Part shown: in pieces, positions 4,384-11,659 of the stretch
Numbering within the stretch: position 1 is the first letter of the stretch
Layout: every line of letters starts with the position of its first letter
Source of the DNA: Deltaproteobacteria bacterium
GTDB lineage: Bacteria > Myxococcota_A > Polyangia > Polyangiales > JADJMO01
Direction of reading: 5' to 3'
NCBI GenBank assembly: GCA_025363655.1
Contig: JANYDK010000011.1
Location: 1-64,000 of the forward strand
Length of the DNA stretch: 64,000 nt
Position numbers and translations under genes: made by a program
The notes under the pieces: generated by a model
Databases searched by the model: none
The model's input: the letters and a program-made list of their open reading frames with translations, nothing else
Told to the model about the DNA's origin: nothing

Positions 4384-7020
4384 ATGCCTCCGACCCAAAC
4401 GCTCCACCTCGATCGCTACACCTCCGACGCGCGGGCCCTCGTCGCTGGCGCGCAGCAGCTCGCCGACGAGCGACAGCACACCGACGTCGAGCCGATTCAC
4501 CTCCTGCACCGCGCGGTCGATCGCGATCGCGGTATCGCCGAGGTCTTCAAGCGCGCCGGCGCCGAGCCGAGCGATCTGCTCGCCGAGGCCGATGGCGCGC
4601 TTCGTCGTTTGCCCAAGGGCACCGGCGAGGCGTACCTGGCGCAAGCGTTCATCGAGCTCCTCGGGCGCGCCGAGCGCGACGCCGAACGCGAGAAGGTGAA
4701 AGAGGTCGGCGTCGAGCACGTGCTCAACGCGCTCACGCAAGAGATCCGCGGAGCCGCGGGCGCGGTCCTCCAGGCTTGTCACATCGGGCCAGGCTCGCTT
4801 CGTCCGCACATGGCGGCGCTGAAGACGACGCCGCGGGAAAATACGCTCACCGGCATCGCCGGCATGAGCTCGGTGTCGACCGGCGGCGCCACGCCCAACG
4901 ATCTCCTCGCGCGCTCCACCGTCGACATCGTCGAGCAGGCGAAGAAGGGCGAGTTCGATCCGGTCATCGGTCGCGACACCGAGGTGCGACGCGTGCTCCA
5001 GATCCTCGAGCGACGGGCGAAGAACCATCCGCTCCTCGTCGGTGAGGCGGGTGTCGGCAAGACGGCGATCGTGCGCGCGCTGGCGATGCGCATCGCCGCC
5101 GGCGACGTGCCGCGCAACTTGGTCGACGCGCGCATCCTCCAGCTCGATCTCGGCGGAGTCATCGCTGGAGCCAAATTGCGCGGGGAAATCGAAGAACGAC
5201 TGCGCGTCGTCTTGCTCGCTTGTCGCCCGCAGGAAGGGCAGAAGACCGAGACCATCCTCTTCATCGAGGACCTCGCGGCGCTCTTCGGCGGTGCCAGCGG
5301 CGGCGCAGGCGTCGGTGAGCTCTTGAAGCCGACGCTGGTGCGCGGCGACGTCCGCATCATGGCCGCGGTCTCGACCGAAGGCCTCCGCAAGATCAACGAG
5401 AAGGACGCCGGGCTCCTCCGCCGGCTCACGGTCGTCGAGATCGACGCGCCCGACGTCGAGAAGGCCAACGCGATTCTCCGCGGCGTCGCCACCCGCTACG
5501 AACGTCACCACGCGGTGCGCATCGGCGAAGGCGCGATCGTCGCTGCGGTCCTCCTCGCCAAGCGCTACGTGCAAGATCGTGCGCTCCCCGACAGCGCGCT
5601 CGATCTCCTCGACGAGGCCTCGGCCCGCAAACGTGTCGAGCTCGAGAGCGTGCCCGCCGAGGTCGACGACAAAATCCGCCGGCTCGACTCGCTCAAGGCC
5701 CAGCTCGCCGCGGTCATCGACGACGACGATCGCCAGAGCAAACAGATGCGCGGCAAGCTCGAGAAAGAGATCGCCACCCTCGAGCCCGAGGTGAAGGAGA
5801 CACGCCACAAGATGACGTCTCGCAAGGGCGCGATTGCCGCCGCCGGCGCGCTGCGAGACGAGCTCACGGGGAAGGAAAAAGAGCTCGCGGCGGCCACCGC
5901 AGGCGGCAACTACGCCAAGCTCGGTGAGCTCGAGCACGTCGCCATCCCCGACTTGAAGCGTCGCCTCGCCGCCGCCGAAGAGGCGGTCGGCCGCGAAGGG
6001 GGCATGGGCTCGAACGTCGTCGACGAGAACGACATCGCCAAGATCCTCGCCGATTGGACGGGAATTCCCGCGCAAAAGATGCTCGAGGGGGACGCCGAGA
6101 AGCTCTTGAAGATGGAAGAGCGACTCTCGGCGCGCGTCGTCGGACAGACCGAGGCGACGAAGGCGGTGTCGAAGGCGGTGCGTCGTGGTCGGCTCGGATT
6201 GCGTGATCCGGGCAAGCCGATCGGCTCCTTCCTCTTCCTCGGCCCCTCGGGTGTCGGCAAGACCGAGCTGGCGAAGGCGCTCGCCGAGTTCCTCTTCGAC
6301 GACGAGCAGGCGATGACCCGCCTCGACATGTCGGAGTTCATGGAGAAGCACATGGCGCAGCGCCTCATCGGTGCGCCGCCAGGCTACGTCGACAGCGAAG
6401 AAGGCGGGTTTTTGACCGAAGCGGTGCGTCGTCGCCCGTACTCGGTGCTCCTCTTCGACGAGGTCGAGAAGGCTCACGCCGACGTCTTCAACTTGCTCCT
6501 GCAGGTGCTCGACGACGGGCGCCTCACCGACGGTCGCGGTCGTCAGGCCGACTTCTCCAACTGCGTCGTCATCATGACGAGCAACATCGGCTCGCAGAAA
6601 ATCCTCGAGACCGATCCGAAGATCTTCGAGAGCGAAGAGGGCCGCGACGCGCTGAAAGACGTGCTCCGCGACGAGCTGCGCAAGTTCTTCCGGCCCGAGT
6701 TCCTCAACCGCATCGACGACGTCATCGTCTTTCGCGCGCTCGGCAAGGAAGACCTCAAGGGCATCGCCACCATCCAGCTGCGCAAGCTCGACAAGCTCCT
6801 CGCCGACCGCGAGCTCAAGGTCACGCTCACCGACGCCGCGCGCGATCGGCTCGTCGATCTCGGCTACGAGCCCGGCTTCGGTGCGCGTCCGCTCCGTCGC
6901 GCGATCCTCCGAGAAATCCAGGATCCGCTCGCCGAGGAGATCCTCCGGGGCGGCTACGCGCCGGGCACGACGATCAAGGTCGACGTCAAGGACGACGACT
7001 TCACGTTCGCCAAGGGCTGA
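4384..7020 (+). CDS. ClpB/ClpA-type AAA+ unfoldase
   Basis: An 878-residue Hsp100 protein: N-domain (1-150), first AAA+ module (Walker A GEAGVGKT near 220), a shortened middle coiled-coil region (about 395-530), and second AAA+ module (Walker A GPSGVGKT near 620, Walker B VLLFDEVEKAH near 690, GAPPGYVDSEEGG pore loop). The second module looks intact. In the first, the Walker B reads ILFIEDL instead of the usual ILFIDEL, and the sensor region (STEGLRKINEKDAGLLRR) also departs from the standard TT-DEYRKYIEKD-ALERR pattern. That suggests altered or lost ATP hydrolysis in ring 1. The middle domain implies a ClpB-like disaggregase rather than ClpA; a type VI ClpV role is less likely. It probably has its own promoter. 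Confidence 0.88.
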   Translation: MPPTQTLHLDRYTSDARALVAGAQQLADERQHTDVEPIHLLHRAVDRDRGIAEVFKRAGAEPSDLLAEADGALRRLPKGTGEAYLAQAFIELLGRAERDAEREKVKEVGVEHVLNALTQEIRGAAGAVLQACHIGPGSLRPHMAALKTTPRENTLTGIAGMSSVSTGGATPNDLLARSTVDIVEQAKKGEFDPVIGRDTEVRRVLQILERRAKNHPLLVGEAGVGKTAIVRALAMRIAAGDVPRNLVDARILQLDLGGVIAGAKLRGEIEERLRVVLLACRPQEGQKTETILFIEDLAALFGGASGGAGVGELLKPTLVRGDVRIMAAVSTEGLRKINEKDAGLLRRLTVVEIDAPDVEKANAILRGVATRYERHHAVRIGEGAIVAAVLLAKRYVQDRALPDSALDLLDEASARKRVELESVPAEVDDKIRRLDSLKAQLAAVIDDDDRQSKQMRGKLEKEIATLEPEVKETRHKMTSRKGAIAAAGALRDELTGKEKELAAATAGGNYAKLGELEHVAIPDLKRRLAAAEEAVGREGGMGSNVVDENDIAKILADWTGIPAQKMLEGDAEKLLKMEERLSARVVGQTEATKAVSKAVRRGRLGLRDPGKPIGSFLFLGPSGVGKTELAKALAEFLFDDEQAMTRLDMSEFMEKHMAQRLIGAPPGYVDSEEGGFLTEAVRRRPYSVLLFDEVEKAHADVFNLLLQVLDDGRLTDGRGRQADFSNCVVIMTSNIGSQKILETDPKIFESEEGRDALKDVLRDELRKFFRPEFLNRIDDVIVFRALGKEDLKGIATIQLRKLDKLLADRELKVTLTDAARDRLVDLGYEPGFGARPLRRAILREIQDPLAEEILRGGYAPGTTIKVDVKDDDFTFAKG

Positions 7021-7027
7021 CCTTCCG

Positions 7028-7873
7028 GTGGGCGTTCGCGATCGGGTCGTGTCGCTGCTCGCGCGGGTCGCCACCGCGCGGGTGCCGCGTCGCTTCCCGA
7101 TGCCGGCCGAGGCGCGCGAGCTGTCGCTCTCGTCGGGCGACGGCACACGCATCAGCGCATGGGTCCGCGAACCGATGGGCAGGTCACGCGACGCAATGGG
7201 CGAACCCTGCGCGACGGTGATCCTCGGTCACGGCTACCGCGACGATCGGCGGCAGCTCTACCTCCCCCTCGCCCCTGCCCTCGCCTCGCGCGGCGTACGC
7301 ACGATCGCTCTCGATTTTCGGGCCCACGGCGCGAGCGAGGGAGACTTCATCACCGTCGGTCACGACGAAGCGCTCGACGTCGAGGCCGCGCTCGCCCACG
7401 CGCGGACGCTGTCCGGCCTCGTCCTCTACATCGGCTTCTAGATGGGCGCCGCGGCCTACCTGCTCTCACGCGAAGAGGCCGACGCTGCGCTCCTCGACTC
7501 GCCGTACGACACGCTCGAAGCGGCCATCCACGCCCGCCTCGATCTCTTCCGCGTGCCGCGTCGAGTGCTCGAAGGGCGCCGACGTCTGCGCGATCATGCA
7601 CGATTTCCCGAGACGCACGCGGTTCGTCCGCTTGATCGGGTGCCGCATCTCCTCTGCCCGACGCTCTTTCTCTTCGCGCCGCGCGATCTCTGGCTCGGCC
7701 CCGAGGTGCGGGCGCGGTTCACCCAGGCCCTCGCGCCGGCCAGCACCCTCGAGCTCCTCGCCCGCGGCGGACACCAACACTTGCACGAGGAGTGGCGACA
7801 GCGAGCTCTTCGCTTCGTCGACGAACGGCTCGCCGCCCCTCGCGGCAATCCCGCAAATCGCGATCGAGGTTGA
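7028..7873 (+). pseudogene. Alpha/beta hydrolase split by an amber codon at the nucleophile
   Basis: The first 137 codons from GTG at 7028 give an alpha/beta hydrolase N-terminal half (CATVILGHGYRDDRRQ oxyanion region, then LDFRAHGASEGD). Strand beta-5 then reads VLYIGF, followed by TAG at 7439-7441, and the frame continues MGAAAYLLS. The family motif here is G-x-S-x-G, so TAG sits exactly where the catalytic serine codon belongs; TCG to TAG is one base change. The second half keeps the acid region (CPTLFLFAPRDLW) and a histidine region (GGHQHLHEEW) without further damage. It starts eight bases after the ClpB-like gene. Either a recent null mutation, a sequencing error or read-through. Confidence 0.8.
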
Positions 7874-7898
7874 CACCGCCGGCTACGGCGACTACCTA
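7870..7898 (+). promoter_or_regulatory. Sigma-70-type promoter of tRNA-Val
   Basis: A perfect TTGACA (7870-7875) is followed after 17 bases by TACCTA (7893-7898). The predicted start, about seven bases further on, leaves a leader of roughly 40 bases before the tRNA. The -35 box overlaps the stop of the broken hydrolase gene. Confidence 0.75.
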
Positions 7899-7945
7899 AC
7901 GCACCCTCTTGCGGCGTCGTCTTCGGACGGCGGCGTGGAGACCCC

Positions 7946-8061
<116 letters not shown>

Positions 8062-8260: not shown

Positions 8261-8381
8261 CCGAAAAGGCGGTGCGGGGCCACGCACGTAGAGTGCGTCG
8301 GCGCGAACCGTCAGACGAGACGGGGTCGTGCAGCGGATACATACCGGCTGACTCCGCCGCGTCCTCAAGACCCGATCCTTC

Positions 8382-8444
8382 TTAGATCGCGAGACAGATC
8401 TGTTCGCGTAGCTCCAGGGTCAGCTTCGATGGCCGCCCCATCTT
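8382..8444 (-). pseudogene. Truncated HTH/terminase-small-subunit-like start
   Basis: The frame begins MGRPSKLTLELREQICLAI and stops. GRPSKLT-x-E-x-x-x-x-I is the usual opening of phage terminase small-subunit-like and homeodomain-like DNA-binding proteins, which normally run well over 100 residues. The stop after 20 codons leaves only the beginning of the first helix. A longer frame upstream to 8600 is acidic and unrecognised. Confidence 0.4.
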
Positions 8445-10396: not shown

Positions 10397-11467
10397 TCAC
10401 GCAGCGCTGTTCGTCTTCTTCTGGGGAACGATCGACGGCCGAGGAGTCGACTTGGTGAACGTCTTGTAGGCGTCCGCGAACTCGTCGCCGAAGGTGACGC
10501 TGAAGGCGTCGCCGTCTTGATCGGCGAGGTGCCGGTGCTTCTCGGCAAACACCTTCCAGAGCGCCTTGGTCTTGCCGAAGAGGCCACCGCCACCACGTCG
10601 TTCGACCTCGCGCTCGATCGCCGGAGGTGCCATGTCGTCGAGCAGCGCTCGCACGCCGCGAAGCGTGGCATCGACCATCGCCAATTGGTGGACGACGAAG
10701 TCGGCGAAGACGTCCTCGAGCACGCGTAGCGTTTCGACGCCTGGATCGATGACGTGCAGGACCGCGGTGGCGATTTGGATGGGCGACTTCGCTTCGGTGA
10801 TGGCCGACACGCTGAGAGGCTGTCGCACGTTGAGCTGCTTCTGGAACATACGCGTCCCCTCGCGCAGCGGAATGACCACGGCGAAGAAGAGGTCGAGCGT
10901 CTGCTTGATCTTGTTGAGGAAGCGGAGGACCTTCTCCGCATCGTCGAGGGTTCCCGCCTGGTAGAGCAGCGCGAGCTGCCGCAACCCCTGCAAGGCCACC
11001 TGCGCCGGATCGCGCGGCGGCCGGCCCGTCCCCGACGGGAGAGTCGGCTCGGCGATCATCGTCTGCCACGCCTGCCCGCCCGCCGAGTCGCTCGACGCCA
11101 TCATCACGTTGGTGTGATTGTCGATGAGCACGCGCACGACCGGCACCGGCGTAAAGCGAAATTGGATGGGGCCGATGTCGAAGGAGTGACCGATGGCAGC
11201 GAGGTCGACGGCCTGGTGCGGCGTCAGCGGTTGCCCGTTCACCATCACCGGGTTCTTGCTTCCCAGGTCGCGGAGGAAGAACTGTTCGCCCCGCCGCTCG
11301 ACGACCGCGTGGAAGTTGGAGACGAACGGCAAGTCGAGCTGCAGCGCATTGAGCACGCTGCGACCGATGCGCAGAGGGAACCGATCGAACGTGCGATCGA
11401 GCACGTGACCGTTGCGCGTGTCGGTGGCGCGGAGGGAGAGGCCGAGCGGGGTGGGTTTGGCGTTCAT
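10397..11467 (-). CDS. FHA-domain protein with type VI secretion C-terminal domain
   Basis: A 356-residue protein. The N-terminal FHA domain (about 15-105) shows FPLRIGRS, SNFHAVVERRGEQFFLRDL, GSKNPVMVNG, the phosphothreonine-binding fold. The C-terminal half carries the T6SS-associated FHA pattern: RGVRALLDDMAP, then KALWKVFAEKHRHLAD, then VTFGDEFADAYKTF. In type VI systems such proteins (TagH/Fha) take part in threonine-phosphorylation control of assembly. No tss gene is nearby, so it is an orphan, and it lies inside the tRNA-bounded element. It could respond to the Ser/Thr kinase encoded at 1405-2874, but nothing here proves it. Confidence 0.85.
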   Translation of the reverse strand: MNAKPTPLGLSLRATDTRNGHVLDRTFDRFPLRIGRSVLNALQLDLPFVSNFHAVVERRGEQFFLRDLGSKNPVMVNGQPLTPHQAVDLAAIGHSFDIGPIQFRFTPVPVVRVLIDNHTNVMMASSDSAGGQAWQTMIAEPTLPSGTGRPPRDPAQVALQGLRQLALLYQAGTLDDAEKVLRFLNKIKQTLDLFFAVVIPLREGTRMFQKQLNVRQPLSVSAITEAKSPIQIATAVLHVIDPGVETLRVLEDVFADFVVHQLAMVDATLRGVRALLDDMAPPAIEREVERRGGGGLFGKTKALWKVFAEKHRHLADQDGDAFSVTFGDEFADAYKTFTKSTPRPSIVPQKKTNSAA

Positions 11468-11587: not shown

Positions 11588-11659
11588 GTCGCAGGTTCAA
11601 GCCCAGTCGCGCCTACAGAAGAGTCCGAGAAAACAAGGCCGGTTCGAATCGACCTGGTG
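11588..11659 (+). repeat. Right 72-bp direct repeat (att-like), 3' tRNA-Val fragment
   Basis: A second copy of 7990-8061, containing the T arm and acceptor 3' strand of tRNA-Val but no D arm or anticodon, plus 44 downstream bases. It differs at two positions (11593 and 11652). Confidence 0.85.

Follow-up and report, generated by a model that had tools for sequence, protein, structure and literature searches.

A probable recent nonsense mutation in the nucleophile codon of an alpha/beta hydrolase gene in a deltaproteobacterium

Alpha/beta hydrolases of the families Hydrolase_4 (PF12146) and Abhydrolase_6 (PF12697) share a nucleophile elbow, an acid and a histidine in a fixed order, and in relatives of the gene described here the elbow reads GFSMGA. 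Stop codons that stand on active-site residues are a feature of selenocysteine (UGA) and pyrrolysine (UAG) recoding, and allo-tRNAs, which are serine-charged tRNAs with non-serine anticodons (PMC7609411), could in principle place serine at a non-serine codon. A search of the literature on stop codons at catalytic residues turned up nothing useful. The gene considered here lies in a window of 64,000 nucleotides at the start of a contig from a Deltaproteobacteria bacterium; it keeps the order of elbow, acid and histidine and scores above the family cut-off, and differs from its relatives in that the elbow serine codon is TAG. Our analysis supports the view, to which we give a probability of roughly 0.6, that the hydrolase carries a private, recent nonsense (null) allele at its nucleophile codon.

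The interrupted gene and its orthologues

The features of the locus to which the text refers are as follows.

4384..7020, plus strand: clpB/clpA-like AAA+ gene directly upstream, 77-78% identical to relatives
7028..7441, plus strand: upstream half of the hydrolase gene, GTG start at 7028, 137 codons and then TAG
7439..7441, plus strand: in-frame TAG where all four orthologues have the nucleophile Ser
7442..7873, plus strand: downstream half in the same frame, first codon ATG (Met of GFSMG), own TGA at its end
7685..7687, plus strand: D220 codon, invariant across orthologues
7778..7780, plus strand: H251 codon, invariant across orthologues
7946..8018, plus strand: tRNA-Val(GAC), downstream, also 3' of the orthologue in three relatives

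The TAG, between VLYIGF and MGAAAYLLS, is the sole interruption of the frame at 7028-7873, which holds no further stops and no frameshifts and probably opens with the GTG at 7028, to judge from its alignment with orthologue starts (MDVHDR, MALHDR). Codon-phase scores mark both halves as coding in the same phase, at 65 and 54 bits above the best other phase. Against Hydrolase_4 (cut-off, 27) the protein scores 31.9 bits if the stop is written as X and 37.4 bits if it is written as Ser; taken alone, the upstream half reaches alpha/beta hydrolase models, though below cut-off, and the downstream half matches none of them. D220 and H251, which we take to be the catalytic acid and the catalytic histidine, are both kept. 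The best solved relative, esterase 5g59, aligns IGFSMGA at the position of the stop. A structure prediction made with two sequences as input, at a mean pLDDT of 46, was of too low a quality to be used. A preliminary description had presented the gene as two intact halves in one frame, acid and histidine regions included, and had identified the missing residue as the active-site serine, one change (TCG to TAG) away; all of this was borne out.

The identity of the missing residue follows from comparison with four genomes of the same taxonomic family, belonging to two other genera, each of which holds one orthologue. All four orthologues are intact, align across the stop, and read GFSMGAA with S at the stop column, where the codon is TCG in three and TCC in the fourth; the TAG thus replaces the nucleophile serine of the G-x-S-x-G motif, a residue that is absent from the window gene. 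Among the family genomes compared the stop is private to this one, and the relatives, rather than ending at the same point, read on through it with serine. An apparent stop inside one orthologue (genome G004) was rejected, since it was that gene's own terminal TGA. In each of the four relatives the hydrolase has the clpB-like gene before it, and in three it is followed, at a greater distance, by tRNA-Val(GAC), the contig of the fourth stopping soon after. These common neighbours, together with the single orthologue per genome, indicate one orthologous, vertically kept locus.

The downstream flank of the gene differs from that of its relatives. The gap between hydrolase and tRNA-Val is about 70 bp in the window (7873-7946) against 2.3-3.6 kb in the three relatives, where it includes a long opposite-strand ORF with a metalloprotease-like motif, DGDVVYHEFGH. 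A 72-nt direct repeat, 97% identical and with its copies 3598 bp apart (7990-8061 and 11588-11659), spans the 3' end of the tRNA-Val gene plus adjoining sequence, and the two copies resemble the ends of an element inserted at a tRNA gene. Between them, both on the minus strand, are a gene at 10397-11467 for an FHA-domain protein with a type VI secretion FHA C-terminal domain and the fragment MGRPSKLTLELREQICLAI (about 8380-8440). The fragment runs into a stop, continues briefly in frame, and has no Pfam match; it may be what is left of a phage or transposon gene.

The ATG that directly follows the TAG makes termination-reinitiation possible, and the gene could conceivably now be two genes whose halves function together or separately without the serine. 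We consider this highly improbable, since all the orthologues have this ATG as the Met codon of GFSMG, so that it is no new start, and the break falls at the nucleophile elbow, so that the protein would have no nucleophile.

Internal stops and the decoding of UAG

Internal stops were sought elsewhere in the genome by two methods. A codon-phase scan first took in 1.23 Mb, with a sensitivity of 0.67 to stops inside trained genes, and later 2.0 Mb, and a paralogue comparison ran over about 2.4 Mb, 0.56 Mb of which was covered by paralogue alignments; a cruder codon score gave no discrimination at all. Most scan candidates were rejected as interruptions because they proved to be antisense ORFs or adjacent genes that share a frame. 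Over the approximately 2.4 Mb examined, internal stops were rare and real interruptions few, and in-frame internal TAGs numbered about three in that sequence plus genome-wide scans of four families. The window hydrolase was the one interrupted gene in 70 genome-wide matches to Abhydrolase_6; for Pkinase (155 found) there was one interrupted gene among the matches listed, and none of the 67 ABC family matches was interrupted. A further TAG lies in a long Cys-rich repeat protein (C116:149991, plus strand), at a place where the repeat is variable.

This scarcity bears in two ways on the possibility, which we place well short of even odds, that the real gene is intact and base 7440 wrong, whether through an error of consensus or assembly or because a draft or metagenome-derived assembly (150 contigs, 96% complete) took up the allele of a minority strain. 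A change that is private to this genome and leaves everything else in the frame intact is what such a fault would look like, and the very small number of lesions of any kind suits isolated errors. However, the paralogue-covered part showed one frameshift-like junction, and a sequence this clean implies that errors are rare too; no positive sign of an error was seen.

The interrupted kinase is the other case of a TAG on an active-site residue. Its TAG (C84:28213-28215) replaces the catalytic-loop lysine of HRDLKPEN, the gene reading HRDL, stop, PENLF, with the frame open to its end beyond; at this position the paralogues have K in 37 and S in 10 of 50 alignments. There are 47 other codons in the kinase domain one step from a stop, giving a chance of about 1/48 of striking this lysine; by a count from the sequence, some 4-5 of the one-step codons are well-known motif residues, so that the chance of striking any of them is about 1/10. 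The kinase case was not selected for the position of its stop. The preliminary description had proposed looking for other in-frame TAGs at conserved residues; one such residue came to light, the kinase lysine, internal TAGs being rare in the sequence examined. The two cases together are suggestive, a mildly surprising coincidence that chance can explain.

The machinery that would be needed to decode UAG was sought directly. Across the genome there were 53 Rfam tRNA hits, and ARAGORN, run on the loci of these and of the tRNA-Sec hits, called no tRNA with a CUA anticodon, while a loosened threshold yielded noise only; the suppressor tRNA raised in the preliminary description was thus not found in these loci. 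The best match to pyrrolysyl-tRNA synthetase (PylS) reached 27.5 bits (cut-off, 178). The RF1 gene, prfA, is above cut-off and uninterrupted, and TAG terminates 81 of 376 confident genes. UAG therefore looks like a normal stop, on evidence that is strong rather than absolute, given an assembly completeness of 96% and the chance that an unusual tRNA escapes detection. Genome-wide reassignment of UAG was rejected given the intact RF1, the frequency of TAG as terminator and the few internal TAGs, as was pyrrolysine, PylS being below cut-off. Thirteen tRNA genes on one strand (C58:2066-7368), several of them low-scoring and duplicating isoacceptors present elsewhere, are a possible tRNA array of a mobile element.

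Recoding of another stop codon does occur in this genome. A gene for selB is above cut-off and a tRNA-Sec is present with the anticodon UCA, from which a thioredoxin/DsbA-like protein with TGA at the first cysteine of its CPFC motif (C84:1178) is a likely selenoprotein. The selenocysteine system serves UGA, not UAG. Of the other, weaker hits to RF01852, all but one proved to be ordinary tRNAs or tmRNA; for the exception (C108:127860-127930) ARAGORN made no tRNA call. Selenocysteine or an allo-tRNA at UAG was rejected on these grounds.

Read-through of the hydrolase TAG, with serine or another residue inserted at the nucleophile and some full-length enzyme made, accordingly seems to us very unlikely. 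The single intact frame of the hydrolase, the second active-site TAG in an otherwise intact kinase and the precedent of UGA in the same genome would all suit it; against it are the absence of a CUA tRNA from the loci searched, of PylS above cut-off and of any defect in RF1, the regular use of TAG as a terminator and the rarity of internal TAGs. Moreover, the hydrolase needs Ser and the kinase Lys, so that one decoder could not restore both and two different ones would be required. A broader version, in which an unrecognised decoder reads through both active-site UAGs at low or regulated frequency, leaving the two enzymes active conditionally, strikes us as less credible still. If true, UAG decoding at active sites would constitute a new recoding system; the evidence favors the ordinary reading.

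Position of the stop and constraint on the gene

The preliminary description argued that a random stop would rarely land on this codon. A single change can turn 48 other codons of the hydrolase into a stop, by 58 paths in all, which puts the chance of striking the serine codon at about 1/49, a figure that is partly post hoc, the case having been chosen for its position. It is for this reason not strong evidence against chance, and a reader of whole genomes will meet such cases sometimes.

Relaxed constraint on the gene was considered through its rate of change. On an unrooted tree, the branch to this genome was 0.93 for the hydrolase against 0.13 for ClpB, a ratio of 7.0, against about 3.2 for the sums of the remaining branches, which weakly suggests that the hydrolase rate on this branch is about twice that expected. 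Weakened constraint would lengthen the hydrolase branch in this way. In a Tajima-style count, for which the outgroup was distant, the excess in rate did not fall to this lineage. Changes specific to the window gene at otherwise invariant columns were evenly spread, at 15 of 54 before the stop and 12 of 45 after it.

The observations favor the model in which one C-to-A change, private to this genome, turned TCG into TAG in an alpha/beta hydrolase gene of vertical descent. Translation would most likely stop after residue 137, ahead of nucleophile, acid and histidine, so that no active enzyme would be made; a restart at the ATG could yield the C-terminal half, likewise without the serine. The lack of other lesions in the frame points to a recent change, and its strike on the catalytic codon would be a matter of chance. 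Four intact syntenic orthologues, a clean coding frame and the failure to detect a UAG decoder in the searches described speak for the null allele, as, weakly, does the long hydrolase branch; the positional coincidence, the kinase TAG and the outcome of the Tajima-style count speak against it. We infer that the base is really present in the organism, that activity is lost and that the loss is recent. Of the three explanations first offered, a recent null mutation and a sequencing or consensus error fit best, and read-through lacks support. If the gene is a simple null allele, its interest hardly goes beyond annotation, in which both halves belong together under a single interrupted gene.

Compared with selenocysteine and pyrrolysine recoding, the hydrolase differs in that its relatives have Ser at the position in question, not Pyl or Sec, and in that no UAG-decoding tRNA was detected in the loci searched; it is likewise unlike the allo-tRNA systems, none with CUA being detected here by tRNA and tRNA-Sec models. 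The ordinary nonsense pseudogene is a different matter. The gene departs from it in that the stop, as read in the assembly, lands on the nucleophile codon. It resembles it in that a single stop, private to the lineage, breaks a frame which is whole in all other respects and open in its relatives.
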